From a virus, in the IMG/VR virus record IMGVR_UViG_3300015245_000070, positions 1 through 26,455 of that record: DNA of 26,455 nucleotides, one strand, 5' to 3'. The notes beneath the pieces were generated by a model. That model saw only the letters and a list, made by a program, of their open reading frames with translations, made no database searches and was not told the origin of the DNA. Below, one piece after another: positions 1,676 to 26,017 of this stretch (its first letter is position 1; each line of letters begins with the position of its first letter). Made by a program: the position numbers and the translations under genes.

Positions 1676-4502
1676 CGACTGCCACCTTCAACGACATCGC
1701 CAGCACGGTGAGCGGCAATGGATTCTCTTGGCGAATAGCGATCCCGCCGTCTTGGTTCCAGCTCGGATCGATCTTAATGGGGAACATCCCGCTCACCATG
1801 TTGGGCGGTGAACCCCACGGCTCGGTCGTGCGCTGCTTGACTTCGCGCAGCTTGGTCAAGCTCGGCCCGACCTTGATGGTGGAAGATTGGTAGACGCGCA
1901 GCATCACTTCGTCCACGTTCTTCGTCACGCCTTGACCGGATGCTGCTGCCTCGAATGAAAGCGGCAGCGTTTCGATGTCGCAGTTATAACCGATGCCGAC
2001 AGAGATGACGCTCGCAGCTTGCGGCAAAGCTATCGCCCCGTTGGTGACAACCAATCCCGGTATAACTGCGCCGTCTGCGAGCACCGTAACTGGCACGCCT
2101 TCAAGATGGTAAAGCCCTCCGGTGATGGCCGCGGTCGGCGCTCCGTTGTAGGTGCTGCCGGCATCCACGAAGAACGAAGACGCGAGCGTAGTCAGTTGCC
2201 GCGTGCGCTGACGTTCGAAATACCGCACCGTGCGGCCATTGATGACCCGACGAATGATTGCGTAGAGCACATCCTCCGTGCCCTCGGGTGTGGCGCAGAC
2301 CGATTCGAAGAATCCGGTGGTGTCTCTGTGGAACCACGCGACCACTTGTTGATCGGGCACATAGGTGAGCCCAAGCAGCACACCATCGGAACGCACCGCC
2401 CAGGCGAATGAGTATGGCGCTCGCGTGTACGCCATGCTCTTGATCGTGAACGTGTCGAAAAGATGCGGAGCCATAACCGACAAGTCATTCGATCGGTAGC
2501 TCTGCTGTTGCCAGATAAAGTTCAACTCTCGAACTCGGCATCCCCTATCCTGTGCGTACAACACCGAGCCGCCGACCACGATAGGCGTGACGTTGCTCGC
2601 TCCAACGTAGTCTTCAGGTGTGTACGAAATGTTGGAAGGCGTCACCGGGCCTTGGCCGCTCGAATTCAATTTCCACTCACCGCCCGACGTGAGAAGAATC
2701 AAATCGGTGCTCGGAATGATATGGCGAATAGTGTCTGCGCGACGCGCTTTGAGCTGCACCGAGATGCTATCGTCGGCCAGTCCAGGTATGCGGTACGTCA
2801 AATTGCTTTCAGTTCCCGAGCGCGTGGCGAACACACCCTGCGGTGCATTATTCGAGCCGGCGAACCAGCGACGACCTTGGTAGTAACCGACCGTGCCAGG
2901 GAAATTGTTCGCGGTAGAGATGACATCATTCGAGATGGGCGGCGTGAACGTGGCATCGGGAAGAATGTTGGCATCAACGAAAGTTCCCGCCAGCGAAGAA
3001 GAGCCGATGAAGCCGTACAGCCCATTTGCTTTTTTGTAAATGTTGTAGCGCAGAAACGTAGTGCTCGACGGCAGTGGCGATGGCATCAACCGAATGCTGT
3101 TGCTATGCCCGACAACAGTTAGGTCGTTGTACACACCGACGAGTCGAGCAAGCCCGCTCGTGCCGGCGAACACACCGAAGCCCGTAGTGCCAAGAGCTAC
3201 CCCGGTGTTCTCATCTCGAATAGTGAAGGTGTTCAACGCTGGAACAGTGTTGATGATGCCGAAGTAAGGCTGCGCCGGGAAGCCGGCAATAGTGAAGTTC
3301 TCCAAACACACCGGATCGCCTACGACGAAACCGTGATTCACGTTGGTGGTAAACACGCCAGGACTGGCGTTGGTCATAGCCGTCACCCACCCGGCCAAGC
3401 CTTGCGCAACGCCGATGCCGCCCGCCGCGATAGACGTGGTGTCTATGCTGACAGCAGCATTCAATCGACGCATCGTGAAGGTGGTGGCTAGTGGAACGCT
3501 GTCCACTTGGCCGATGAAGTAGTCAAACCAACCGTTCGCTCCTACCACAGTCACGACAGCGACGATCTGATTCACCACGAATCCGTGCGCGGCAGCAGTA
3601 GTGAACAATGCAGCAACCGCGCTCGTGACGCTATTGATACCGGCTACCGCTCCGGTGGTGGTGTGCATACGCGGACGATACGATTGCGATTCTTCCAGCG
3701 TGCCGTTGAGCGTGAAGGTGATTAGGTATTCTTGCAGCTTGGGCGCGCCGCCACCGCCGACAGTGAACATCAACTGGCTCGCGGAATTCACCGGCACAGC
3801 GATGGGTGCCATGCTGGCAATCGCCAACGTCCAGTTCACCGCGCCAAGCCGCTTCAGCTCTCGCTTGTCGTAGCTCGGATGTGTAATCGTCATCACATCC
3901 GCTGACTGCGTGTAGTGCAAATCTTGCAGGTCCGCTTCTAAGTAAGGGGATGCGATCTCGTACACACGCGCGCCTGTGCCGCCAGCGGTGTACGCACCAT
4001 ACGCCGTCGTGTTGATGTTCGTGCCGTCGAAGTAGGTGAGCTGGTAGGTGTTCGCTGCCGCTCCCGCAACAGTCACGAAGCGCCCGTTCAGTTGCGTCAT
4101 GCCGCCGATGCCGGATAAGAAGATGACTTGTCCATTGGCGTAGCCATGCGCGTTCTGCGTCACCACGCCAGGGTTGGCCTGGGTGATCGCGGTGATCGCA
4201 CCGCCCGCTTCGAGCACGGTGCCTGCTTGCGTGTGGAAACGGATGTACTGATCTCCAAACTCCAACTGATAGGCTTGCGCCGTGTTGAAGATGAACGGGA
4301 TGAGCACCGACTGCTTGGCGCTGTTCTTCGTTTCGAGGATGTACTCGAAGCCTGGGCTGTTGACGACAGGACCGTGCGGCAACACTTCAAAATTGCGGCA
4401 CGTCTTCAGCCCGGTTTGAAACTTGGATAGATCGATGCGCCCGAACAATTCAGGCGTAATCTCACCCGCAGAGAAGGAGCGAGTAAGTGTTGCGACTCTC
4501 AT
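1668..4502 (-). CDS. Tail nozzle protein (tail tubular protein B, T7 gp12-like)
   Basis: 944 residues, against 794 for T7 gp12. The N-terminus (TRSFSAGEITPELFGRIDLS, then KFQTGLKTCRNFEVLPHGPV) is the hallmark start of podovirus tail nozzle/stabilisation proteins. Three similar inserts at about residues 103-178, 289-365 and 373-450 each carry a T-x-A-xPGVVT...HGF/HGY-x-x-G pattern resembling the E1 FCCH-type repeat often detected in phage tail proteins. The C-terminal half has the typical WFAGSNNAPQGVFATRSG and GGEWKLNSSGQGP segments. The ATG overlaps the gatekeeper stop (ATGA at 4499-4502). It forms the distal tail tube. Confidence 0.92.
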   Translation of the reverse strand: MRVATLTRSFSAGEITPELFGRIDLSKFQTGLKTCRNFEVLPHGPVVNSPGFEYILETKNSAKQSVLIPFIFNTAQAYQLEFGDQYIRFHTQAGTVLEAGGAITAITQANPGVVTQNAHGYANGQVIFLSGIGGMTQLNGRFVTVAGAAANTYQLTYFDGTNINTTAYGAYTAGGTGARVYEIASPYLEADLQDLHYTQSADVMTITHPSYDKRELKRLGAVNWTLAIASMAPIAVPVNSASQLMFTVGGGGAPKLQEYLITFTLNGTLEESQSYRPRMHTTTGAVAGINSVTSAVAALFTTAAAHGFVVNQIVAVVTVVGANGWFDYFIGQVDSVPLATTFTMRRLNAAVSIDTTSIAAGGIGVAQGLAGWVTAMTNASPGVFTTNVNHGFVVGDPVCLENFTIAGFPAQPYFGIINTVPALNTFTIRDENTGVALGTTGFGVFAGTSGLARLVGVYNDLTVVGHSNSIRLMPSPLPSSTTFLRYNIYKKANGLYGFIGSSSLAGTFVDANILPDATFTPPISNDVISTANNFPGTVGYYQGRRWFAGSNNAPQGVFATRSGTESNLTYRIPGLADDSISVQLKARRADTIRHIIPSTDLILLTSGGEWKLNSSGQGPVTPSNISYTPEDYVGASNVTPIVVGGSVLYAQDRGCRVRELNFIWQQQSYRSNDLSVMAPHLFDTFTIKSMAYTRAPYSFAWAVRSDGVLLGLTYVPDQQVVAWFHRDTTGFFESVCATPEGTEDVLYAIIRRVINGRTVRYFERQRTRQLTTLASSFFVDAGSTYNGAPTAAITGGLYHLEGVPVTVLADGAVIPGLVVTNGAIALPQAASVISVGIGYNCDIETLPLSFEAAASGQGVTKNVDEVMLRVYQSSTIKVGPSLTKLREVKQRTTEPWGSPPNMVSGMFPIKIDPSWNQDGGIAIRQENPLPLTVLAMSLKVAVGG

Positions 4503-5170
4503 GCGCGAGCTGCTATTGAAGCCGGCGTGGAGTTATTGTACGGATTGGACTGCCGAGCGTTGGCGTCAGACATTTGAGCCCTCGGCAAATCGAACTTCAG
4601 GAACATCTCAAGCTGCTTCTCCGCGACCGCGACACCATCCGTTCCTTTGATGATCGGTCCGGCGAGAAACGATGCGAGATAGCGCGCGAGCGCTTGCACC
4701 ATGAGCGGCGTGAACTTACCGGTGTCGGTCAAGGTTACCCGGTAAATCATCTGCGCTAAGTCGGTGTTCGTGTACACCACTTGGCTGTCGTCGTCAAGCG
4801 ATTCGACAACGAAATCCTGCGAGTTGAGTGTGTCGGTCGCAGCCGGCGTAAGGATGTTCGTGTTGACCGTCGAGAACAGATCGGGTAGCGCGTCGGGCAT
4901 CAAGACCGCAATCGGCTGAATGCACTTGTTTGGAAGCGCGTAAGCAAACGCCCAACCGATCGGTGGTGTGATGGCGAGTTTGGCGAGATTGGCACGGCGC
5001 GTGTTGCAGCGCCAGGGATGTATCTCCAGCAGCGCATCGCGCGCCATCGGGTAGAACCGAGCGCAGTGCATCGCTTGTACGCTGCCATCGGGCGGCGTGA
5101 TCGCCGTGACTACGGCCTCATCACCGAGATGCCCGAGCGCGGTATTGCAGATGTCAACTTCAGACGCCAT
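4499..5170 (-). CDS. Tail gatekeeper/adaptor (tail tubular protein A, T7 gp11-like)
   Basis: 223 residues (T7 gp11 is 196). The N-terminus EVDICNTALGHLGDEAVVTA and the following ARDALLEIHPWRCNTRRANL match the conserved pattern of podovirus head-tail adaptor proteins: a helical start with 'N-x-AL-x-x-LG', then 'R..LL..HPW..A..R..L'. It docks under the portal and carries the nozzle. The ATG at 5170 has a strong GAGGGGAAGCGT leader. The gene lies just after the hairpin terminator at 5191-5214, so the tail genes may have partly separate expression from the head genes. It is translationally coupled to the nozzle gene through ATGA. Confidence 0.92.
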   Translation of the reverse strand: MASEVDICNTALGHLGDEAVVTAITPPDGSVQAMHCARFYPMARDALLEIHPWRCNTRRANLAKLAITPPIGWAFAYALPNKCIQPIAVLMPDALPDLFSTVNTNILTPAATDTLNSQDFVVESLDDDSQVVYTNTDLAQMIYRVTLTDTGKFTPLMVQALARYLASFLAGPIIKGTDGVAVAEKQLEMFLKFDLPRAQMSDANARQSNPYNNSTPASIAARA

Positions 5171-5182
5171 ACGCTTCCCCTC

Positions 5183-5216
5183 TAAACAAAACGGGAGCTG
5201 CTAGCAGCTCCCGTTA
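5183..5216 (-). terminator. Rho-independent terminator, leftward
   Basis: A perfect inverted repeat, ACGGGAGCTGC (5191-5201) / GCAGCTCCCGT (5204-5214) with a 2-base centre, is followed on the minus strand by TTTGTTTA. It lies between the 5241-5474 gene and the tail gatekeeper. The 11-bp GC-rich stem plus T-rich tail fits an intrinsic terminator for the head operon. Because tail genes follow on the same strand, read-through or a promoter within the leader must serve them. Confidence 0.8.
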
Positions 5217-5240
5217 TCCAGCGACCTTGCAGCCGGTGAG

Positions 5241-5474
5241 CTAGGCGAGATCGTCGGCGAGAGCTGGTTGGCCGGCCTTGACCGGTTTGAACCACGTCGG
5301 CGCAATGGTGATCTTCTTTCCGGTTTCCTTGCCGAGAACGTCTTTCTCGTTCTCCACCTTGGCCGTCATGATCGACTCGGGCATCACGAATTCCTCGCCC
5401 GGTTCGCGCAGGGCAGTGCCGTCGAAACCCCGGCCGATTGCCACCACTCGGATCATCTTCACGTCTTTCCCCAT
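5241..5474 (-). CDS. Small conserved phage protein, paralogue of 5501-5713
   Basis: 77 residues. The core RVVAIGRGFDGTALREPGEE, then FVMPESIMTAK, then APTWFKPV aligns residue for residue with the neighbouring 70-residue protein (VVALRRG...YEAGERFVVPESLMTAK...APRWFEPV), so the two are tandem paralogues. This copy has a longer linker (about 14 extra residues) between MTAK and the WF motif. The start has an AAGGAAGCGC leader. Small beta-rich proteins with a 'G-E-x-F-x-V-P-E...WFxPV' pattern are common beside phage capsid genes, but I know of no assigned function. Confidence 0.75.
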   Translation of the reverse strand: MGKDVKMIRVVAIGRGFDGTALREPGEEFVMPESIMTAKVENEKDVLGKETGKKITIAPTWFKPVKAGQPALADDLA

Positions 5475-5500
5475 GCGCTTCCTTTCTTTCCTGGGTTAAA

Positions 5501-5713
5501 CTACTCGGCCGGTTTGGCTTCCTCGACCGGTTTGGCTTCTTCGACCGGTACGGGCTCGAACCAGCGCGGAGCGACAGGATTGCCCTCAGCGTCCTTCTTC
5601 GCGGTCATCAACGATTCGGGCACCACGAACCGCTCACCCGCTTCGTACACCGCTCCGAGATACAGCCCGCGACGCAGCGCCACGACCGCGACCATCTTTT
5701 TTTCTTCCGACAT
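5501..5713 (-). CDS. Small conserved phage protein with repeated acidic-Pro tail
   Basis: 70 residues. Residues about 8-53 form the same small domain as the 5241-5474 protein. The C-terminus is a micro-repeat, PVPVEEAKPVEEAKPAE, encoded by near-identical units of about 18 bases at 5510-5550 that could expand or contract by slippage. The leader AAAGGAAAGATC precedes the ATG at 5713. It lies downstream of the cement protein gene and a hairpin at 5737-5759. The function is unknown. A minor capsid-associated role is suggested only by position. Confidence 0.75.
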   Translation of the reverse strand: MSEEKKMVAVVALRRGLYLGAVYEAGERFVVPESLMTAKKDAEGNPVAPRWFEPVPVEEAKPVEEAKPAE

Positions 5714-5736
5714 GATCTTTCCTTTTCGAGAGTTGA

Positions 5737-5759
5737 GCCGCCAGCACTACGCTGGCGGC
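5737..5759. other. Intergenic hairpin without T tract
   Basis: A perfect 9-bp inverted repeat, GCCGCCAGC (5737-5745) / GCTGGCGGC (5751-5759), with loop ACTAC lies just after the cement protein stop. No T run follows on the minus strand, so it is not a typical terminator. It could stabilise the abundant capsid messenger or act as a weak pause site. This is inference. Confidence 0.55.
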
Positions 5760-5767
5760 ATCGTTGG

Positions 5768-6256
5768 TTACACGTCGATGGTGAAGCCGACCGGGTAGAT
5801 GACGTTGCGCTGCACGTCCGGCGAAATCCATCCGAGAATCGCACCCGCGGTGAACGGGCCGGTGGCAACCGTGTAGCGCAGCCCCAGGAACCGTTTGTAA
5901 TTGTCGTAGGGTAGCGCCACGCGCACGAGCACCGTGTTCTTCAGGATAGCGGCCTTGCCGATGGCAGCGGTCGAGAAGTGGACGACCGGCGAAGACGCAA
6001 GCGTCGCAGCCGAGTCCGATTCGAGCGTGATGGTGAGCGTTGCGGCACCCGCTGCCGCGAAGTCGGCCGAACCGTCCGATTGCACGAACAGAATGGTTTC
6101 GGCGGGATTCACGCCCTCGTCCGCGAGAGCCGGCGATGCCGCCTGTCGCAGATCGATGACGTTGGCCGAGATCGCTGTGGCCGTTACTGCCGAACCGGAC
6201 TTCACACCCGCAGCGGTGGTGGTGCCGTCGAAAGTCGTTTGGAGATCGATGAACAT
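5768..6256 (-). CDS. Bbp16-like capsid cement/decoration protein
   Basis: 162 residues, beta-rich and low in Cys. The pattern FIDLQTTFDG...VIDLRQA, then ETILFVQSDGSADFAAAGAA (compare 'V..D....F'), then LVRVALPYDNYKRFLGLRY and a C-terminal GAILGWISPDVQRN...YPVGFTI matches the Bbp16 family of phage capsid cement proteins as I know it, including the ending 'Y..G.T'. Such proteins sit as trimers on the capsid surface. It is downstream of the major capsid gene, as in BPP-1-like phages. The leader AAAGGGCACACCAA supports the ATG at 6256. Assignment is by pattern only. Confidence 0.78.
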   Translation of the reverse strand: MFIDLQTTFDGTTTAAGVKSGSAVTATAISANVIDLRQAASPALADEGVNPAETILFVQSDGSADFAAAGAATLTITLESDSAATLASSPVVHFSTAAIGKAAILKNTVLVRVALPYDNYKRFLGLRYTVATGPFTAGAILGWISPDVQRNVIYPVGFTIDV

Positions 6257-6295
6257 TTGGTGTGCCCTTTCTGTTTGGGGTTGGCCGCTCGGGAG

Positions 6296-7468
6296 CTACG
6301 ATACGACGGCTTCGGTGGTCAGGATTTGATCCACCGTGCGGATGGGCACGCCGAAGAACTCGGTCTGCTTCTGCACGTAGCCCGGCGACACCGTACCGAA
6401 CTGGTTGGCCGCATCACGGATCGAGAGCGCGGCGTTCGACTTGTCGATGGCGGCGACCGAGAGCATTTCCTTCACGGTGCGCGTTGCGTAGAACACCGGA
6501 GTGCCCATACCCATGAAGGGGATGCGCGCCATTGCGCGGGTCATCAACTTGATGAGCGCGGTGGCTGCGGTCGGCGCTTGCGAACCGGTTTGGCCCACGA
6601 GATCGGACACGTCGATGTTGGCGATGCGAACCACGTAGCGCCAGTCGCGCACCGTCAGGCCGCACTTCCACTGCCAGTGGTCGGCCAGCGCGCGGTAGCG
6701 GTTGTTGTTGGAGTCGAACGCATCGATCAAGCCCAGGTCTTCGTGGTTGAGCCCCGCCTTCGAGCCCTTGGGGAACAGACCGATCACGGTGTTTTTGCCC
6801 CATACCACGAGCCACACGCTCGTGTTGTCCGCGCCGGCACCGCCCGCGCTGATGACGTTCTGACCGTTGACGGCACCCGAGATCGTCGAGAAGCGCGGTG
6901 CCAGCCCCATGAAGCGCTCGGGGTTGACCGCGGTGTTTCCGTAGATCAGCGTTTGCGCCATCGCTTGGTTCATGGCTTCGAGGAACGCCTGGGCTTCCAG
7001 CAGCCGGAAGGATTTGTCGTTGCCGTTCAGCGCAGCCACGTCCTTGTCCAGCTCGGCGCGCGTTTCGAGCATCCCGCAGGCGTCTTCGATCTGCGCTCGC
7101 ACGGTCTTGCTCGGGGGCACGCCCTGATACATCTGCCGCCAGATCGCGGTGGGGAGTCCCGTTCGCACGGTCGTCTTGTGGCCGGTCGGAAGGTTGCCTT
7201 CCATGAACGGCATGTCGAGCAGGATTTCGTTGGTCTGATTCAGCAGCTCCACTACCGTGGCGGTGGAACCGTCCGGGTCGAGAGACTTGGCCCAATCCAG
7301 CAACGTGACCTTGCCGCTCACGCCGATGGTCGCGCCGGTTTGACCGAACATCTGCCGGACGCCGACGACTTGGCCCCCGAGCACCCACGCTGCGAAATAC
7401 GGAACGCCGTAGATCAGCGCGAAGGCGAAGATGAACGGAACCAGTAGGGCAAGGATATGCTGGATCAT
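6296..7468 (-). CDS. Major capsid protein with hydrophobic N-terminal extension
   Basis: 390 residues. From about residue 56 it follows the BPP-1-type (Bbp17-like) HK97-fold capsid protein: TLLDWAKSLDPDGSTATVVE, LNQTNEILLDMPFMEGNLPTG, RTGLPTAIWRQMYQGV, then DKDVAALNGN, MNQAMAQTLIYGN and a C-terminal FFGVPIRTVDQIL. In relatives the protein starts close to the 'LLD.AK..DP' segment. Here a hydrophobic stretch (about residues 4-33, ILALLVPFIFAFALIYG) precedes it. The ATG at 7468 has a strong AGAGGAG leader 8 bases away. Inner starts, including the ATG at 7351, lack a clear one. The extension may be cleaved or may be a fused membrane segment. Confidence 0.92.
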   Translation of the reverse strand: MIQHILALLVPFIFAFALIYGVPYFAAWVLGGQVVGVRQMFGQTGATIGVSGKVTLLDWAKSLDPDGSTATVVELLNQTNEILLDMPFMEGNLPTGHKTTVRTGLPTAIWRQMYQGVPPSKTVRAQIEDACGMLETRAELDKDVAALNGNDKSFRLLEAQAFLEAMNQAMAQTLIYGNTAVNPERFMGLAPRFSTISGAVNGQNVISAGGAGADNTSVWLVVWGKNTVIGLFPKGSKAGLNHEDLGLIDAFDSNNNRYRALADHWQWKCGLTVRDWRYVVRIANIDVSDLVGQTGSQAPTAATALIKLMTRAMARIPFMGMGTPVFYATRTVKEMLSVAAIDKSNAALSIRDAANQFGTVSPGYVQKQTEFFGVPIRTVDQILTTEAVVS

Positions 7469-9521: not shown

Positions 9522-11285
9522 CTACGCTGCTACCGCTTGCCCCGGTCCTGAGTACCCGCTGAACTGCGAGATCACATCGGTCAAAGCGTTCTGCTCCATC
9601 GGCCCGGTCTTGGCTTGCGAAAGCGTCTTGGCGGTGTCCGCAGCCGCAGCCATCTGCTGCGCCTTCGCCGCGGCGGCTTGCCGCTGCGCGCGGGTCTGCC
9701 GGATGAGCGCCACTTTGTCGTTCGCCACAACGTACTCGGGATCGACACCGAGCATGTCGGCGTAGCCATCGATGATGTCGTCGAAGTCGAGCTTGTCCAG
9801 GGCATCCGGTTGCTGACCGGACTTCTCCTGAAGCATGGCAATGTTGCCCACCGTCATCACGAGCCGGTCAACACCCTGCACACCGATGGCGCGTTGCGCC
9901 TGCGCGAGCATCGACACAAACTCCACATTCAGCTCTTGGCCCTGCATCTCCTGGGGCGGCGGCGGCACGATCCCGGTTTCGATCATGCGGTCGAACGTTA
10001 TGTCGATCTTCGGTTTCAACAGCTCGTTGTGCAGGCGTTCGAGCACCGGCCCGAGCATCAGCAATTTCTCCTCGTGGCGCTCGGCGACTTCGCGCGCCGA
10101 GATCGGCTGTACGCCGCTGCCGTCTTCGCCGGATTGCGCGAGCATGAGGAACAGATCGACGTAGAAGTTTTCCTTGATCCGCTGGCGGATGTCCCTGATG
10201 TCTTCGAGCTGATCGCGGATGTCCAACTCGACATCGAACATCGTGCGAATACCGCCGCCCGCGCTTGTCTGATCGACGAACGCCGAGCCCCCAGGCAACG
10301 TAGCGAGCGGCATGTTCTTCAGCGATGTGGGAATCTGAAGCGGCGGCTTCACCTTGTAGTCGATGGCCTGCCCCTTGCGGAGCTGACCGTGCTGGAGTTG
10401 CTTGATGTCGCCCAGGCTCTCCATGCCGGGGGAGTTGCCGTAGATGTCGCCGCCGGTCGCGTGCCAGCGCGCAGCGAGCGCGGGAAAGCGTTTGAAGCCC
10501 GATTCCTTCAAGAACTTCTCGCGTCCGCCGCTAATCATCTCCGCGGCGTTCGGTTCTAGATAGCATGATGTGTAGGGCAAATTGCGCCCGAAGGCTTGCC
10601 CCAGGCGGCTGGTGTCGCGCTCACGGTCAGCGCGCGGCTCGATCACGTGGAGCACCGTCACCCAGGCGTCGAGATTCTTCCCGGTGTCCCACATATTTTG
10701 AACCATGCCGCTGCAATTCTCGCGGCCGAACGCCTGCACCATCGCCGCCACGGTCATGTCGTACTCGCGGTACAGCGTGGAGATTTGGTTGCGCGCATCC
10801 ACCGACACCATGTACTCGCCGCACGTGCTTGGGTAGTGGCGCAGCACGTCTTGGAAATCAGGCATGATGATCGACACGCCTGTACCGTACAGACCCAACT
10901 CCTCATACAACGTGTGCAGCGAATTGTAGGTGTTCGAGCGCGAGAAGATCACACGCATGATCTCTGTCACGTTCGACAGCCACGCCTTCACCGGGCCATA
11001 CTTCATCAACGACACGTCGGTAGTCGATAGCCGGAACCATGGACGCGCGGGCGAAGTCATGCCGGCCATGAGCCCCGCGGCGAGCACGCGCAGCGCTCGC
11101 GTGCCGGTGGAGTCGATGATGGAGTTGTAGCGCTTGTCGCCCTTGTTGCGATCAGTCACCAAGAAGCGCCCGGTACGCGGCTGCACGTATTGGCTCAGCT
11201 CACGCCATTGGTTGATCCACGTCGCACGCTCGGTGTAGAGCGAGCCGCGCCGGATCATGTACTGCTCGCGCTTGGTAATCGCCAT
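9522..11285 (-). CDS. Portal (head-tail connecting) protein
   Basis: 587 residues (T7 gp8 is 536). The start (RGSLYTERATWINQWRELSQ, then YVQPRTGRF) and the conserved IIDSTGTRALRVLAAGLMAG, MTSPARPWFRL, ELGLYGTGVSII and GNSPGMESLGDIKQLQ segments identify the podovirus head-tail connector family. The C-terminus (about residues 520-587) is Ala/Gln-rich and probably flexible. It forms the dodecameric ring at the packaging vertex, bound by the terminase and then by the gatekeeper. The ATG overlaps the upstream gene's stop (ATGA at 11283-11287). Confidence 0.95.
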   Translation of the reverse strand: MAITKREQYMIRRGSLYTERATWINQWRELSQYVQPRTGRFLVTDRNKGDKRYNSIIDSTGTRALRVLAAGLMAGMTSPARPWFRLSTTDVSLMKYGPVKAWLSNVTEIMRVIFSRSNTYNSLHTLYEELGLYGTGVSIIMPDFQDVLRHYPSTCGEYMVSVDARNQISTLYREYDMTVAAMVQAFGRENCSGMVQNMWDTGKNLDAWVTVLHVIEPRADRERDTSRLGQAFGRNLPYTSCYLEPNAAEMISGGREKFLKESGFKRFPALAARWHATGGDIYGNSPGMESLGDIKQLQHGQLRKGQAIDYKVKPPLQIPTSLKNMPLATLPGGSAFVDQTSAGGGIRTMFDVELDIRDQLEDIRDIRQRIKENFYVDLFLMLAQSGEDGSGVQPISAREVAERHEEKLLMLGPVLERLHNELLKPKIDITFDRMIETGIVPPPPQEMQGQELNVEFVSMLAQAQRAIGVQGVDRLVMTVGNIAMLQEKSGQQPDALDKLDFDDIIDGYADMLGVDPEYVVANDKVALIRQTRAQRQAAAAKAQQMAAAADTAKTLSQAKTGPMEQNALTDVISQFSGYSGPGQAVAA

Positions 11286-15266: not shown

Positions 15267-17330
15267 TCAGTCATGGTGAACTGGCTCCACAATGCCACCA
15301 TCGAAGCATAGCCGGCCCTTCTCCACCAGCCTATCGAGCGTGGTTTGAGCCACCTGACGGCGCGTATCCCGCTTCCCACCGGCCGGTGGCACACGCTGAC
15401 TGACCACCGCTTCGATCAAGTCGTTAATTTTTACGTCTTCCCCTGTGAGCCCTTGGAGATCATCGAGCACTCGTAGCACAAGGCGCTCAATATCGCCCAG
15501 GGGCGTGCGAGCTTGGGCCGGCTGCGCTCCCGCATCGGTGGGCACCACCACGCAGCTCGTGATGGGGTCACCGTCAGTGTCCGCACCCAGGCTCACCACG
15601 TCGAGCTTGAAGCCCATCTCTACGTCATCGCCACCGTCGCGCAGCTTCGAGATGGTAGCGACGCGCTGTGGGCTGTGAGGGTCACGCACAATCTCGAACT
15701 CCACGTCTTCAGCCCCGCCGATCCCTGACCAGCCTCGCGCGCCCTTGCTCGCATCTTTCCCCGAGTGGTGGATGAGTGCAATCATCGCTCCGGTAGCAGC
15801 TCGCAGCATTTTGCAATGGCCGAGCACTCGGCCCATATCCTCACCGGAATTTTCGTTGGCTCCCGGCGTCACCTGGGCGAGCGTGTCCACGACGATGAGC
15901 ACCGGGCGCGGGGTGAGCGCGAGGATCGCATCGCGCACGGCGTCCACGTTGTCCTTGCGCATGAAGTTCGGGGATGCTGCAAGCACGGTGATCGGCAGTG
16001 CGCTCAGCTCGATGTGGTGGTGTGCCGCGTACGCTTTGAGCCGGTTCTTGAAACCGCGCGATCCCTCAGCGGCGATATACGCGACAGCTCCTTGAACAGT
16101 TTTCTTGCCGCGATATGGAATTCCGAGCGCGACGTGAGCTGCAAGGTCGAGAGTGAAGAAAGATTTTCCGCTGCCGCTCTCACCGAAAATAACAGCAAGG
16201 TCAGCTTGCGGGAGAATTCCCTTGATGATCCATGTGGCAGCTTCGCCTTGGGCGAAGACGTTGGCAGGAAGAAACTCGTAACTTCTTTTTTCTTTCTGTC
16301 CATCTGCTGTTTTTGTGCTCGCGTCAGTATGCGCAGCGCCTCCAGTGCCGGTGCTAGGCTCTTGCGCGTCACGCTGTACCGCTCCGGTGTTGTCGGTGAA
16401 GTCGTCCGCAGCGGTGATGCCGATAGCTTGTAGATATTCTTGATCTGTCCGTGCGGAGCAATGCGCATGCAGACATTTGAAATGCCCCTGTGCAAATCCT
16501 CCTGTATTGCGCGGGAAATACGTTGTGCCTGATTCGCTTCCCTCACCTGGATCGGTATGAGAAGACTCAAACGGACATCGAATATGCAACCGCCCGTCAC
16601 GTTCCGTGGAGATGACACTTCCGATTCGATATAACTGGTTTGCCGTTTCGTCATTAGTGATTGCCTCACTCAGTTTGGTTTTGCGATCGGTGCTGCTCGT
16701 TTCTGTTGATGGCTCGATGCCGAAGGTATTTTGCAAAGTGGCCCACAACAGGCCGAATTGGTATTCATTGAGCGAAATAAACTCACCAGGAATGTCGCCA
16801 CGCCATTTGTAGCGCTCCCCTGATGGGTGTGTACCAGCCGCAATGAACTGTTGACCGGTTGCGAGGAATTCGATGATGCCGTGCGCTGTTTTGATGGCGC
16901 GTTTCGAGTAGTTGCCCACCAGCTCGAACGCCACTAAGAGCTTCGGTGAGTTGTTGCGGTAGCGGATCGCTGCACCTGGAATATGGCGCTCGATACACTG
17001 CTGCACAGCGCTCGCTAACGCGGCATCAGTGATGTCTACGTCCAGCGCACGTATGCGTCGCGTGATGATGCAGATGCCGTAGTCTTCGTTCTTCGACCAC
17101 TGCTCCACTTCGTGAGCGGTGGTGATCTTGGTGGACCAATCGAGAATACCGCCGACTTTGTGGCTACTGTTGTAGCGCGATGGCGTTTTCCCGAGCTGGC
17201 GTAGCTTCGAGTGTTCGCCGATAACGGCGTTTGGATTTGCGACGACCGGTAGCAGATCGCTGGTGAGCCCGAGTACCAGACTGAAGTTGATCCACTCCTC
17301 GCTCGTCGCGCCGAAGCGCAACGTTGTCAT
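15267..17330 (-). CDS. Primase-helicase (prim-pol N-terminus, RepA/RecA-like ATPase)
   Basis: 687 residues. The N-terminal archaeo-eukaryotic primase/polymerase-like domain (about 1-200) has the metal motif LDVDI (96-100) and RYRNNSPKLLVAFEL. A putative zinc site follows (C252, H258, C286, C291, with nearby His). The C-terminal ATPase has Walker A GESGSGKS (383-390), Walker B LIVVDTLAQ (478-486) and a sensor LIHHSGKD (519-526), typical of AAA_25/RepA-type replicative helicases. A C-terminal winged-helix-like tail ends the protein. It should unwind and prime phage DNA. The ATG at 17330 lies 2 bases after the zinc mini-protein stop, and the repeat array lies just downstream. Confidence 0.92.
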   Translation of the reverse strand: MTTLRFGATSEEWINFSLVLGLTSDLLPVVANPNAVIGEHSKLRQLGKTPSRYNSSHKVGGILDWSTKITTAHEVEQWSKNEDYGICIITRRIRALDVDITDAALASAVQQCIERHIPGAAIRYRNNSPKLLVAFELVGNYSKRAIKTAHGIIEFLATGQQFIAAGTHPSGERYKWRGDIPGEFISLNEYQFGLLWATLQNTFGIEPSTETSSTDRKTKLSEAITNDETANQLYRIGSVISTERDGRLHIRCPFESSHTDPGEGSESGTTYFPRNTGGFAQGHFKCLHAHCSARTDQEYLQAIGITAADDFTDNTGAVQRDAQEPSTGTGGAAHTDASTKTADGQKEKRSYEFLPANVFAQGEAATWIIKGILPQADLAVIFGESGSGKSFFTLDLAAHVALGIPYRGKKTVQGAVAYIAAEGSRGFKNRLKAYAAHHHIELSALPITVLAASPNFMRKDNVDAVRDAILALTPRPVLIVVDTLAQVTPGANENSGEDMGRVLGHCKMLRAATGAMIALIHHSGKDASKGARGWSGIGGAEDVEFEIVRDPHSPQRVATISKLRDGGDDVEMGFKLDVVSLGADTDGDPITSCVVVPTDAGAQPAQARTPLGDIERLVLRVLDDLQGLTGEDVKINDLIEAVVSQRVPPAGGKRDTRRQVAQTTLDRLVEKGRLCFDGGIVEPVHHD

Positions 17331-17539: not shown

Positions 17540-17817
17540 GCCACACCCGGCATCTCGATGATCTCGATATTTTTAAGATCGATGTCATGCTTGGCTAAGT
17601 TGTAGTGGTCTTGAAGCAATCGTGTTTGCGCGGTGTTTGAACGCCACACCGAAAACAATGAGTAGATCACGCGATCCCACGGATGGTTTGTGATAAAAGG
17701 CGCGAATTCCGAAACGTAATATCCACCCACGCTGGTGTTGTGAAATCCAAGATCGCGGTGGTACAGCTCCACGCGAATTCGCGGATCGCTGATGCGGTGC
17801 GCGATGATCTTTACCAT
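17536..17817 (-). CDS. Unknown phage protein (93 aa)
   Basis: The protein starts MVKIIAHRISDPRIRVELYH and contains GFHNTSVGGYYVSEFAPFIT, DRVIYSLFSVWRSNTAQTRL and a C-terminal IEIIEMPGVA. The frame is open 29 codons further upstream, but the ATG at 17817 forms TAATG with the stop of the PagP-like gene, so it is preferred. The residue pattern looks alpha/beta and soluble, with no Cys. It is coupled to the zinc mini-protein downstream by GTGA. I do not recognise a family. Confidence 0.7.
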   Translation of the reverse strand: MVKIIAHRISDPRIRVELYHRDLGFHNTSVGGYYVSEFAPFITNHPWDRVIYSLFSVWRSNTAQTRLLQDHYNLAKHDIDLKNIEIIEMPGVA

Positions 17818-18263
17818 TAGAATTTCACCATCAGCTCGAACCCCCACACCGCTTGGCCGTCTTTGTACTTCGGTGCATAGAAGACATTCGCACCGACGCG
17901 CCATCGGTCGAAGGAGATCACCGGGATGAGCGCCGGGAAGAAGCCACCATTGTTGTGCATCGCGTAGCCGTTCACCACTGCGAGGATCGCACCCAGGTGA
18001 GCGACCTTCACATCGAGCGGGGTGTAGATTGCGCCGGCTACGATGCTGTTGCGGTTGAAGCTGTTCTTGTAGTCGTCGAGCTTCAAGCGCAGATCGGTAG
18101 CAACGGTGTACTCGATGCCCACGCCGTAGTTGCGTTCGTTGTAGCCCTGGGTGCGGTCAAGGTGGTACGACGCTACTGGCAGTGTCAGTCGCGCTTCTGC
18201 GCCTTGCACTTCGGTGATGGCGAAGATGATGGCGCTGACCACGAGCCAGTAGAGGATTTTCAC
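17817..18263 (-). CDS. PagP-like outer-membrane beta-barrel protein
   Basis: 148 residues. A signal peptide (MKILYWLVVSAIIFAITEVQ, then GAEA) precedes alternating beta strands: ASYHLDRTQGYNERNYGVGI, SIVAGAIYTPL, GAILAVVNGYAMHNNGGFFP, ALIPVISFDRWRVGANVFYA and a final aromatic WGFELMVKF, typical of an outer-membrane strand ending in Phe. The 'H.......YNE.N.G.G......' and 'P.......R.G.N....P' patterns match PagP-like phage proteins. PagP transfers palmitate to lipid A. Whether this one is catalytic is not shown. The GTG start has a GAGGG leader and overlaps the regulator stop (GTGA). It could alter the host surface or block superinfection. Confidence 0.72.
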   Translation of the reverse strand: MKILYWLVVSAIIFAITEVQGAEARLTLPVASYHLDRTQGYNERNYGVGIEYTVATDLRLKLDDYKNSFNRNSIVAGAIYTPLDVKVAHLGAILAVVNGYAMHNNGGFFPALIPVISFDRWRVGANVFYAPKYKDGQAVWGFELMVKF

Positions 18264-20721: not shown

Positions 20722-21804
20722 ATGGAACTCATGAAAGCATCCAACCAGTGGGCCACGCGCCCGGCCGATGAGCGTTTCACCAGCTTGCTCGACATGCACT
20801 CGCACTTCGTCGAGCAGCGCCAGCTCAGCCGCGCCAAGGTCGTCGCATCGCGCAACATCCACGTGCTCCCCGAGCCCGACAACAAGGGCCTGCTCGTCGC
20901 CGGCCCGCAAGGTCAAGGCTTCGCGCCCACGCATTGGGCGTTCGGTCAGCTCGCTCAGCTCGCGGAAGCGCCCGCATCGTATCTGCGCTCGATCCCCTCA
21001 CCGCTCGCCGCGGACTGCATCAACTACGGCTTGCAGTACAAGCGGGACATCGAGGATGTCGGTCTGCTGCTCTACAAGAACGGCGATCCCATCGTGCGCG
21101 CTGCCACCGGCCCGAACTACGGTCGCATCTGGAACAGCGACATCGTGGGCGGATTGGTCAAGCAGTTCGGTGACGGCATCACCGGAGCGTTCCGCGTGCC
21201 GGGAGAATTCGGCAAGCACGTGGACGTGACCAAGGCCAACACCACGCTGTACGCTGGCGACCGCGATATGTTCGTGTTTCTCGCGGACGAAGATCACCGC
21301 ATCGAGATTCCGAATCGGCGCGACGGTCAAGCCGGTTCGCTCTCGCGCGGCTTCTTCGTGTGGAACAGCGAAGTCGGCAAGACCACGTTCGGCATCGCCA
21401 CGTTCTTGTTCGACTACGTGTGCTGCAACCGCATCGTGTGGGGCGCGCAAGGCTACGAGGAGATCACCTTGCGCCACACCAAGAGCGCACCCGAGCGCTT
21501 CATCGAGGAAGTGGCACCGGCTCTCACGGTGTACGCCAACTCCAGCACCGCGGGCGTGGTCAAGGCGATCGCCGATGCGCGCGCAGCTCGCATCGACAAC
21601 GTGGATGAGTTTCTTGCCAAGCGCTTCGGGCCGCGCATGGTGACGACGTTCCAGGCAGTCCACAAGCTCGAAGAAGGTCGGCCCATCGAAACGCTGTGGG
21701 ACGCGACCACAGCCGTTACAGCTCACGCGCGCACCATCGGATACCAAGATGCCCGCGTCGAGCTGGAACGCCAAGCCGGTGATCTCATGAGGCTCGCGGC
21801 GTAG
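20722..21804 (+). CDS. DUF932 family protein
   Basis: 360 residues. DUF932-type features include an N-terminal ERFTSLLDMHSHF, an ASYLRSIPSPLAADCINYGL helix, VGLLLYKNGDPIVRAATGPN, then FRVPGEF...TTLYAGDRDMFVFL and the later SRGFFVWNSEVGKTTFGIAT, FLFDYVCCNRIVWGAQGYEE. The C-terminal third is helical. Proteins of this family occur on plasmids and phages. Their role is not settled, though they are often encoded beside recombination or replication genes. The strong AGGAG leader and first position suggest high early expression. The product is likely cytoplasmic. Confidence 0.88.
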   Translation: MELMKASNQWATRPADERFTSLLDMHSHFVEQRQLSRAKVVASRNIHVLPEPDNKGLLVAGPQGQGFAPTHWAFGQLAQLAEAPASYLRSIPSPLAADCINYGLQYKRDIEDVGLLLYKNGDPIVRAATGPNYGRIWNSDIVGGLVKQFGDGITGAFRVPGEFGKHVDVTKANTTLYAGDRDMFVFLADEDHRIEIPNRRDGQAGSLSRGFFVWNSEVGKTTFGIATFLFDYVCCNRIVWGAQGYEEITLRHTKSAPERFIEEVAPALTVYANSSTAGVVKAIADARAARIDNVDEFLAKRFGPRMVTTFQAVHKLEEGRPIETLWDATTAVTAHARTIGYQDARVELERQAGDLMRLAA

Positions 21805-22448: not shown

Positions 22449-22762
22449 GCCACCTAGGGCACAAGGATCGCGGTTTCGTTCACGCCTTCTACAAGCCGCT
22501 CAACTACGACATCTCGACGCCCGAAGGCATGGCGAACGCCGTAGAGTGGCAGCTCAAGCTGTTCTCTGTGATCGGTCAAGGCGGGCGGTGGATCGTGCCC
22601 AGGAGCGGCACGATCTACACCATCCACCACAAGACCAAGACGGCGGTGCGCCAGCTCGGCTTTCTGCCCGAGCCCGACATCGAGCGCGTCATCAAGGCCG
22701 CGGGGTGGACCGTCATCGCTATGGTGCGCGCACCGGGCACACCACGACCGAGTGATTGCTGA
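22445..22762 (+). CDS. Unknown protein (105 aa)
   Basis: The protein begins MSHLGHKDRGFVHAFYKPLN, with NAVEWQLKLFSVIGQGGRWI, VPRSGTIYTIHHKTKTAVRQ and EPDIERVIKAAGWTVIAM. It is a small alpha/beta protein. The C-terminal 'P...IERV..A.GW.V' recalls a compact fold seen in phage proteins of unknown role. The ATG overlaps the previous stop (ATGA). The following gene starts 1 base after this stop. Confidence 0.73.
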   Translation: MSHLGHKDRGFVHAFYKPLNYDISTPEGMANAVEWQLKLFSVIGQGGRWIVPRSGTIYTIHHKTKTAVRQLGFLPEPDIERVIKAAGWTVIAMVRAPGTPRPSDC

Positions 22763-22763
22763 G

Positions 22764-22955
22764 ATGATCGCCACGGTCTTTCTCATCGCAACGTTCACAT
22801 CGGTCAGTCCGATGACGCTGCACGATTGCGAATACCGCACCAGTCAACCCAACGCTACCGCGGTGCAGAACATCAGCACGTGGACTCGTGGTGGCTGGCC
22901 GCTGTGGCGTGTCACGTGTTATTGGAAGTCCAATCAACCAAGGAGATCAACATGA
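22764..22955 (+). CDS. Small exported protein (63 aa)
   Basis: MIATVFLIATFTSVSPMTLH is a short hydrophobic signal-like start. The mature part contains DCEYRTSQPNATAVQNISTW and PLWRVTCYW, with two Cys that could pair outside the cytoplasm. An in-frame GTG at 22752 lies within the previous gene and is less likely. The TGA overlaps the ATG of the Spo11-like gene (ATGA, 22952-22955), so the end of this gene doubles as the next leader. The function is unknown. Confidence 0.65.
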   Translation: MIATVFLIATFTSVSPMTLHDCEYRTSQPNATAVQNISTWTRGGWPLWRVTCYWKSNQPRRST

Positions 22956-23860
22956 GCAAGCAGAAATACGAACACCACGATTTCAAGGCCGATTCGCTGA
23001 CCCTCATCAAGCAAGTCAACGCGATCATCGCCGAATACTTGGGTGCGGGATACCGGCTCACGGTGCGCCAGCTCTACTACCAGCTCGTGCAACGGGCTAT
23101 CGTTGAGAACACGCTCAAGAGCTACAAGCGTGTGGCGTCGCTCATCAACGATGCGAAGATGGCGGGGCTCATCGATTGGGACATCATCGAGGATCGCACG
23201 CGCGAATTCATCCGCAACTCGCGGTGGGAGTCGGGCAAATCGATTCTCGAAAGCGTTGCCGCGCAGTTCCACATGGATATGTGGGCGAACCAGCCCAAGC
23301 GCGTCTTCGTCATCGTGGAGAAGGAAGCGCTGGCCGGCGTGCTCGAACGTCCGTGTCGTGAGTACGACATGCCGTTGCTCGCAGCTCGCGGATACCCGAG
23401 CGGCACCGTGCTGCGCGAATTTTCCATTAGCGATCTGATGAGCTGCATCGCGGAGAAGCAGAAGCCGGTGATCTTGCACTTCGGCGATCATGACCCGAGC
23501 GGCATGGACATGAGCCGCGATCTGTCGGAACGCTTCACCACGTTCATCACCGGCAGCGTTGGTAACGGCGACATGGGCGGCAGAGCTTTCCAACGGCTCG
23601 CGCTCAACATGCCGCAGATCGAAGAACTCAATCCCCCGCCCAACCCGGCGAAGCAATCCGATGCGCGCTTTCAGCAGTACGAGCAGGAATTTGGCGGAGA
23701 CTCCTGGGAGCTGGATGCGCTGCCGCCTGAGTATCTCGACAAGCTGGTGCGCGACAACTGCCAAGCGAACTTGGATCAAGCTCTGTGGGATGAGCGCAAG
23801 GACGAGATCGACGACGTGCGTAGCAAACTCCAAGAAGTAGCAGACAACTTCGATGCGTAA
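22952..23860 (+). CDS. Stand-alone Topo VI-A/Spo11-like TOPRIM protein
   Basis: 302 residues from the ATG at 22952 with an AAGGAGATCAAC leader. The long open frame upstream belongs to other genes. The N-terminal winged-helix part has TVRQLYYQLVQRAIVENTLK: the R-x-x-Y-Y pattern matches the catalytic Tyr region of Topo VI-A/Spo11 (candidate Y43). The TOPRIM domain follows: VFVIVEKEALAGVLERPC (E123), ARGYPSGTVLREF and PVILHFGDHDPSGMDM (D179, D181). Known relatives make a 5'-linked double-strand break and use a B subunit for gating. No B subunit (GHKL ATPase) is seen here. B-less homologues from mobile elements have been called Mini-A. Activity is inferred. Confidence 0.82.
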   Translation: MSKQKYEHHDFKADSLTLIKQVNAIIAEYLGAGYRLTVRQLYYQLVQRAIVENTLKSYKRVASLINDAKMAGLIDWDIIEDRTREFIRNSRWESGKSILESVAAQFHMDMWANQPKRVFVIVEKEALAGVLERPCREYDMPLLAARGYPSGTVLREFSISDLMSCIAEKQKPVILHFGDHDPSGMDMSRDLSERFTTFITGSVGNGDMGGRAFQRLALNMPQIEELNPPPNPAKQSDARFQQYEQEFGGDSWELDALPPEYLDKLVRDNCQANLDQALWDERKDEIDDVRSKLQEVADNFDA

Positions 23861-24515: not shown

Positions 24516-24716
24516 ATGAGCATGGCAACTTTGGAGCGCGCAATTCTTCACGGCGCTCGCGTCTTCTTCAACAATCCGAAGCTTCGGCACAAAGACATTC
24601 GTGAATGGAGCACCGGAGCGGTGGGCAAGAACTCCGATGAAGTCCAAGCGTACATCGCCGACCTAGGCGTGAACGTTGCGGTTTCCAAAGAATGCGACAA
24701 GAGGAAGTCAAAGTGA
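24516..24716 (+). CDS. Conserved small phage protein (66 aa)
   Basis: The protein begins MSMATLERAILHGARVFFNN, then PKLRHKDIREWSTGAVGKNS and DEVQAYIADLGVNVAVSKEC. The 'RAILHGARV.F.NP.LR.KDI.EWS' pattern recurs in phages, usually near recombination genes. No function is assigned as far as I know. The GGGAG leader lies 7 bases before the ATG. The stop overlaps the nuclease GTG start (GTGA at 24713-24716). Confidence 0.75.
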   Translation: MSMATLERAILHGARVFFNNPKLRHKDIREWSTGAVGKNSDEVQAYIADLGVNVAVSKECDKRKSK

Positions 24717-26017
24717 AAACAGCTCACGCGATCCTCTCTCCATCCGGTGCCGAGCGCTGGATGACATGTCCCGGCAGCGTGGCACTCGAAGCGCAGTGCC
24801 CAGGCGAAACAAACGAGTACGCCGACGAAGGCACCGCAGCGCACGCGCTCGCGTCGATGTGCCTCACCACCAACAACGATCCGGCTGCGTACGCCGGTCG
24901 GGTATTCCAAATCGTTAACGGGGTGTACTGGCCGGGCATCGAAGCACCAAGACCACCGCTGCTGAAAGGTCACGTCACTTCCATCGTCAACGATTTCACC
25001 GTTGACGACTCGATGATCGAGAACGTGCGTACCTACGTCAACCACATCAGGGAGTACGCTGCTAGCGGCGACGCTGTTCTGCGCATCGAGCAGCGCATGT
25101 CGATCAGCCACATCACTGAAGAAAAAGACGCCTTCGGCACGAGCGACGCGGTGATCGAGTTGCTCGGCCATCGTGAGCTGCAAGTTCACGATCTGAAGTA
25201 CGGCATGGGCGTCCAGGTGTTCGCCGAGCGCAATCCGCAGCTCATGATTTACGCTGCCGCGGCGCTTGCCAAGTTCGATCCAGCCGGAGACAACTTCGAT
25301 CTCGTGCGTTTGATTATTCACCAACCGCGGCTCTCGCATCTCGACGAGTGGGTGTGCCCGGTCACGACTCTACAGGCTTGGGTGAAGAACGAAGTAGTGC
25401 CCAAGGCGTACCACGCGATGTCTACGTTGCTGGAAAAACCCGATGCGGTGCGCCACCATCTGCACGCGAGCGAGCCGGCGTGCCGATTCTGTAAGGCCAA
25501 GGCGACGTGCCCCGAGCTGGCGCGCACCGTGAGTGAAGCGGTGTTCGGGGATTTCGACGCACTCGATGACAAGACCAAGACCGCGCCGGTTATCGTGCCG
25601 GCTGTCACCGATTTGATCGGCCATCGCATGTCGAAGGTGGAGATGGTCGAAGACTGGTGCAAAGCAGTGCGCGCCAAAGCCGATCTGCTGCTGCGCAATG
25701 GCGAGAAGGTCGCCGGCTGGAAGCTCGTCGTCGGCAAGAAAGGCAACCGTAAATGGGGCGACGAGAACGCCGCCATCAAGTTGATGAAGGCGATGCGCCT
25801 GAAGATCACCGAGATGTACACGATGAAAGTGCTCACGCCGACCAAGGCGGAAGCGTTCTTCAAGATGACACCGAAACGCTGGGCGCAGCTTGTGTCGCTC
25901 ATTACACAAGAACCCGGTAATGCGCACGTCGCACCGGAGAGCGATACGCGGTCGGCATTCGTTGTGCCGAACGCCGCGGATGATTTCGCTGCCGATGATG
26001 GAAGCGATTTAGCATGA
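24713..26017 (+). CDS. DUF2800 PD-(D/E)XK nuclease, Cas4/AddB-type Fe-S pattern
   Basis: 434 residues from a GTG at 24713 with a GAGGA leader. RecB-type nuclease motifs are EGTAAHALA (39-47, motif I with His44), GTSDAVI (142-148, D145), VHDLKYG (158-164, D160 and K162) and the Q/Y motif NPQLMIYA (174-181). Cysteines C19, C257, C260 and C266 (ACRFCKAKATCP) repeat the one-plus-three pattern that ligates a 4Fe-4S cluster in Cas4 and AddB. The C-terminal 150 residues are a helical DUF2800 extension (EDWCKAVRAKADLLLRNGEK). It is likely a 5'-to-3' or end-processing nuclease in phage recombination or replication. Confidence 0.88.
   Translation: MKTAHAILSPSGAERWMTCPGSVALEAQCPGETNEYADEGTAAHALASMCLTTNNDPAAYAGRVFQIVNGVYWPGIEAPRPPLLKGHVTSIVNDFTVDDSMIENVRTYVNHIREYAASGDAVLRIEQRMSISHITEEKDAFGTSDAVIELLGHRELQVHDLKYGMGVQVFAERNPQLMIYAAAALAKFDPAGDNFDLVRLIIHQPRLSHLDEWVCPVTTLQAWVKNEVVPKAYHAMSTLLEKPDAVRHHLHASEPACRFCKAKATCPELARTVSEAVFGDFDALDDKTKTAPVIVPAVTDLIGHRMSKVEMVEDWCKAVRAKADLLLRNGEKVAGWKLVVGKKGNRKWGDENAAIKLMKAMRLKITEMYTMKVLTPTKAEAFFKMTPKRWAQLVSLITQEPGNAHVAPESDTRSAFVVPNAADDFAADDGSDLA

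Follow-up and report, generated by a model that had tools for sequence, protein, structure and literature searches.

A phage-encoded Mini-A protein with the active-site layout of topoisomerase VI A and no accompanying B subunit

The protein encoded at 22952–23860 of the window, which is the whole 26,455-nucleotide stretch analysed here (IMG/VR virus record IMGVR_UViG_3300015245_000070), is almost certainly a Mini-A. The Mini-A family is already named and spread among phages, and the gene of the window is one more member. We add that no B subunit accompanies Mini-A in 41 records, that it has no conserved neighbour, that coupling to an Fe-S nuclease is not general, and that the active site of the topoisomerase VI A subunit (Top6A) is kept without the stretch that holds its DNA latch. 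An earlier note on this DNA had read the protein as a stand-alone, B-less enzyme of the Spo11/Topo VI-A kind. Conservation, fold and profile comparison bear out the layout that it described, and the protein is no longer an open curiosity, since its family has a name.

Gene and family assignment

The features of the window are listed by position and strand, with the basis of each in brackets.

9522–11285, minus strand: head-tail connector (about 56% identity to Bordetella phage BPP-1 and relatives)
15267–17330, minus strand: primase-helicase with an AAA_25 domain, left of the operon and on the opposite strand (family match)
20722–21804, plus strand: phage protein of unknown function, phrog_1362, first large gene of the same rightward run as Mini-A (PHROG match)
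22752–22955, plus strand: 67-aa ORF, not conserved beside other Mini-A genes (4-nt overlap with the Mini-A start)
22952–23860, plus strand: Mini-A protein (Top6A/Spo11-like), 302 aa, winged helix then TOPRIM (ORF, PHROG match, fold model, conservation)
23066–23080, plus strand: codons R39-Q-L-Y42-Y43, winged-helix (5Y-CAP-like) motif with Y43 as candidate nucleophile (codon count from ATG 22952; alignment with archaeal Topo VI-A T-I-R-D-L-Y-Y)
23318–23323, plus strand: codons E123-K124, first TOPRIM acidic residue (alignment with Topo VI-A V-V-E-K-D-A)
23486–23494, plus strand: codons D179-H180-D181, TOPRIM DxD metal-binding motif (alignment with Topo VI-A D-G-D-P-Y-G)
23708–23716, plus strand: codons E253-L254-D255, an ExD motif that may correspond to the Top6A ExE/E342 clasp residue (conserved in 129/131; alignment with Topo VI-A E-x-E-A weak alone, P 0.15)
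24692–26017, plus strand: DUF2800 / PD-(D/E)XK exonuclease (phrog_69), the 'Fe-S nuclease' of the operon (family match)

The Mini-A ORF starts at ATG 22952, 6 nt after a good ribosome-binding site (AAGGAG), and its stop codon ends at 23860; the start shares 4 nt (ATGA) with the upstream ORF. A longer in-frame start, TTG 22826, is mechanically available, and relatives start near the ATG. Scans for promoters and terminators found no more than expected by chance.

PHROG 6247, 'DNA topoisomerase', matches the protein over its full length (E 5.9e-119). Pseudomonas phage NP1 has a single matching gene, gp49, also labelled 'DNA topoisomerase', whose product is 52.9% identical over 96% of the length (E 2e-100), and a 2021 review uses this phage as the Mini-A exemplar in the legend of its Fig. 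4 (PMC7614492). The same review describes Mini-A as truncated Top6A homologues of archaeoviruses and bacteriophages. In accordance with this description, the window protein is virus-encoded, is homologous to the NP1 exemplar, and consists in its 302 residues only of the winged-helix tyrosine domain, with about 42 residues before the tyrosine, and TOPRIM, with no associated B subunit. Mini-A is credited to Takahashi et al. 2020, as cited by PMC7614492, PMC8185306 and PMC8084294; PMC8185306 places it close to Topo VIII, and other reviews state that it occurs mainly on mobile elements and that its function is unknown. Genes annotated 'Topo Mini-A' on two archaeal plasmid records match the window protein, and a plasmid record so annotated matches at E 3e-19.

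The nearest relatives found are in Trinickia and Burkholderia genomes (56–58% identity). Matches occur in 75 records of a phage collection, including Serratia phage Smarc5 (54%), Salmonella phage BP12C (53%), Pseudomonas phages PaMx25 and NP1 (53%) and Achromobacter phage JWF (53%). Carriers are phages, plasmids and viral contigs, and hosts belong to very many bacterial phyla and include two archaeal MAGs. A Pfam search with the window protein alone gave no hit, an NCBIfam search with the Mini-A alignment gave nothing convincing, and PHROGs alone names the protein; family members match TP6A_N (best E 0.021) and TOP6A-Spo11_Toprim (best E 0.0022) marginally in Pfam.

Active-site conservation and relation to topoisomerase VI A

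A scan of viral contigs for relatives gave 52 loci, of which 44 were aligned with the window protein. Across these 45 sequences R39, Y43, E123, K124, D179 and D181 never vary and Y42 hardly does. In a wider set of 131 viral, phage, prophage and plasmid sequences, non-redundant at 90%, Y43 is conserved throughout (131/131), and R39 and E123 are each present in 130/131 with one gap. D179 and D181 are also found in 131/131 each, counts that are biased upwards because the patterns used to fetch many of the sequences included the D-H-D stretch; Y43 and E123 are unaffected. The ExD motif (E253/D255) is kept in 129 of the 131. Position 42 is tyrosine in 125, phenylalanine in five and tryptophan in one, and hence Y43, which never varies, is the catalytic candidate of the pair. 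The earlier note had placed R-x-x-Y-Y, E123 and D179/D181 at these positions and had chosen Y43; the motifs lie where it put them and are conserved beyond chance across the 131 relatives, and loss of both tyrosines in close homologues, which would have spoken against its reading, is not seen.

The fold prediction and comparison with Topo VI-A proposed in that note were carried out. An AlphaFold2 model of the window protein is confident (pLDDT 92.8, pTM 0.85), and its sole significant fold match among 350,542 PDB chains is 1d3y, the topoisomerase VI A subunit (E 1.6e-4, probability 1.00). Over the whole chain, the superposition on 1d3y scores low (TM-score 0.31, rmsd 17.9), and therefore the relation between Mini-A and Topo VI-A is one by domain, with a different arrangement or spacing. 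Sequence searches of the PDB with phmmer and with a profile gave only chance hits, and a fold search against a viral library gave no informative named match. For profile comparison, 11 archaeal Topo VI-A proteins were aligned. Whole-length hhalign reached a probability of only 44% and its global mode told little, and for this reason the domains were compared separately. The TOPRIM halves give P 4.6e-5, with EK and DxDPxG in register; in the winged-helix halves RQLYY of Mini-A falls on RDLYY of Topo VI-A (P about 1e-3), and the ExD motif (E253/D255) is placed weakly on the ExE of Topo VI-A (P 0.15). Fold and profiles both match Topo VI-A by domain, with a 5Y-CAP-like domain present.

On this alignment of sequences, the active-site residues of Mini-A are taken to correspond to those of Top6A, for which the matching residues in the Top6 structures are R102, Y106, E202, D254 and D256 (PMC13040014). 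In those structures E342 of Top6A clasps R102 and restrains cleavage, a DNA latch lies in segment 44–67, and the ATPase state and the B subunit are coupled to cleavage competence (PMC13040014). The stretch before the catalytic tyrosine is shorter in Mini-A (median 42 residues vs 77–109 in Topo VI-A, about 50 fewer), which leaves no room for a counterpart of the latch.

Missing B subunit and gene company

Searches for HATPase_c (PF02518) and the Topo-VIb transducer (PF09239) matched none of 41 Mini-A-bearing records (0/41), seven of which are complete named records, and the controls matched. The earlier note had reported no GHKL B subunit in the window, and we confirm this for PF02518 in what is a linear, probably incomplete 26-kb virus record. 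All ORFs within 5 kb of Mini-A were clustered over 118 loci, in 24 of which, the window included, the ORF picking had missed Mini-A itself; no standing neighbour gene emerged, and the commonest neighbour group, an integrase-like family, occurs at 18/118 loci. The possibility of a small partner concealed in an overlap with the start of Mini-A was also considered and rejected, the adjoining ORFs being unrelated in the window, NP1, BP12C, Smarc5, LWP01 and an archaeal plasmid.

Coupling to an Fe-S nuclease operon, which the earlier note had found suggestive, does not hold as a property of the family, because only 6 of 39 Mini-A records have DUF2800. Record coordinates place DUF2800 near Mini-A in a Listeria phage and tens of kb away in Salmonella and Serratia phages. 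In NP1 the company of Mini-A consists of ligase, Sak4, Cas4-type exonuclease, primase and helicase genes. A replication or recombination setting thus recurs, with different genes.

By its virion genes the phage of the window is a BPP-1-like podovirus, since its connector shares about 56% identity with those of BPP-1 and relatives. BPP-1 and its relatives are phages of 39–43 kb, and the genome here is probably incomplete because the record is 26.5 kb and linear. A betaproteobacterial host may be guessed from the BPP-1-like connector and from the Trinickia and Burkholderia relatives of Mini-A. The phage also has a 148-aa ORF (17817–18263, minus strand) matching phrog_3600, a PagP-like lipid A acylation protein, which is an unusual annotation for phage cargo.

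Several small elements carry Mini-A. One of these is from Paenibacillus durus:

NZ_CP009289.1, 'plasmid', 15151 bp, circular: Mini-A at 5115–6008; Zot-domain ATPase at 2564–3283

Its Zot-domain protein and a PT-repeat-rich protein with a signal peptide give this element the look of one of filamentous-phage type; a search for further relatives of it returned the element itself and, beyond it, a single Moorella phage. A 10341-bp contig binned as Patescibacteria (JALHYA010000013.1) has identical ends of 141 bp and is likely a complete circle; besides Mini-A it encodes a protein resembling a primase-helicase and two that resemble tyrosine recombinases (assigned by eye). The circular archaeal plasmid LC711082.1 (8776 bp) has Mini-A at 5801–6721 with the motif RQIWY, in which W replaces Y42; Mini-A and a zinc-finger protein are its only functionally named genes. 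A short viral contig of 4949 bp with Mini-A has inverted repeats of 144 bp at its two ends, which may be an assembly artefact.

Possible activity and comparison with known systems

We favour, with somewhat better than even confidence, a homodimeric enzyme that, free of ATP control, nicks or breaks phage DNA through a tyrosine linkage, for replication or recombination. By analogy with Top6A, Mini-A would dimerise through its TOPRIM domains, E123, D179 and D181 of one subunit would hold Mg2+, and Y43 of the other subunit would attack the DNA backbone and become joined to the 5′ end, the outcome being a nick or a staggered double-strand break. Y43 and TOPRIM very probably act in DNA cleavage. With no B subunit there is no ATP-driven gate, so that reversible cleavage, or breakage dependent on the state of the DNA (bends, supercoils), would be expected rather than ATP-driven strand passage. 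Such cleavage might be used in phage DNA replication or recombination, and for a B-independent role of this kind we consider the balance to be even; we infer this role from gene company, which is not conserved across the family. Moreover, since cleavage in Top6 is coupled to B (PMC13040014), an enzyme without B could be inactive alone or could use a host protein.

Mini-A might instead be the cleaving half of a true type IIB topoisomerase that borrows its ATPase from the host or from a distant phage locus. The retention of all Top6A active-site residues, including R39 and E253/D255 as candidates for the clasp pair, and the coupling of ATPase state and cleavage in Top6 (PMC13040014) are consistent with such borrowing. 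However, we consider it quite unlikely, given the absence of GHKL and Topo VI-B transducer domains from all 41 Mini-A records, the lack of a conserved neighbour, a host range that takes in a great many bacterial phyla as well as two archaeal MAGs, and the deficit of about 50 residues before the catalytic tyrosine relative to Topo VI-A. In addition, most bacteria, to our knowledge, are without Topo VI-B. It is unlikely, despite the conserved tyrosine and TOPRIM, that Mini-A is an ATP-independent swivel relaxing supercoils in phage replication through reversible tyrosine-linked nicks; phages are normally able to use host gyrase. In favour of a swivel, ATP-free relaxation of DNA is reported for one Topo VIII and, for another, ATP-independent cleavage alone (PMC7614492).

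It is highly improbable that Mini-A is a TOPRIM nuclease like those of JetD/MksG (Wadjet) or OLD/Gabija type, with the tyrosine unused. A few members do show weak hits to DUF2399 (best E 0.00055) and JetD_C (best E 0.029), but Y43 is invariant within an R-x-x-Y-Y motif that aligns with Topo VI-A, and no SMC, OLD or primase family is matched. OLD nuclease and DnaG primase families of Pfam gave no match to the window protein and none shared by the 45 members, one of which grazes the generic Toprim_2 (E 0.21); the match to OLD or primase that would have counted against the earlier reading therefore does not appear. It is also very unlikely that Mini-A is a nicking initiator of replication replacing a Rep protein, at least in small replicons. 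In the 15.1-kb circular Zot-bearing element of P. durus, which encodes Mini-A, none of the seven larger proteins scanned is a recognised Rep, whereas the annotation of the nearest Zot relative, Moorella phage MCACPph1, includes a replication initiation protein. However, this element is one case only, the 10.3-kb circular Patescibacteria contig has a primase-helicase-like protein beside Mini-A, and tailed phages that carry Mini-A encode a primase and a helicase themselves. A broader proposal, in which Mini-A is in general a tyrosine enzyme that cleaves DNA independently of B to start replication or recombination and, at the extreme, is the replication initiator of small circular elements such as that of P. 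durus, seems rather improbable to us; if true, Mini-A would be a Spo11-like nuclease that is autonomous by nature.

Controlled DNA cutting by Spo11, the enzyme of meiotic double-strand breaks, and by Top6A depends on a B-type partner. Mini-A keeps the whole active site and, by sequence, is never with such a partner, and therefore offers a natural test of the A module cutting alone. The literature searched yielded no biochemical test of a Mini-A, and close relatives in Salmonella, Pseudomonas and Serratia phages, some with cultivable hosts, make the question testable.

JetD/MksG of Wadjet and GajA of Gabija are, like Mini-A (whose dimer is presumed), dimeric TOPRIM enzymes that cleave DNA. However, MksG is without the winged-helix tyrosine (PMC10123090), which is invariant in Mini-A (131/131). 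Top6A and Mini-A have R-x-x-Y-Y, E-K, D-x-D-P-x-G and E-x-[DE]-A in the same order. Compared with Topo VI, Mini-A has the catalytic tyrosine and the TOPRIM E and DxD, but not the heterotetramer with B subunits. Spo11 has the same catalytic layout by way of homology to Topo VI-A, so that the likeness is indirect; unlike Mini-A, it is eukaryotic and works with a Top6B-like partner. Topoisomerase VIII, like Mini-A, belongs to the type IIB enzymes of mobile elements, but has the ATPase part that Mini-A is without. The Mini-A of phage NP1 agrees with that of the window in length, motifs, phage-borne location and absence of a B subunit, although NP1 is classed in Nipunavirus, whereas the virion genes of the window phage resemble those of podoviruses like Bordetella phage BPP-1.
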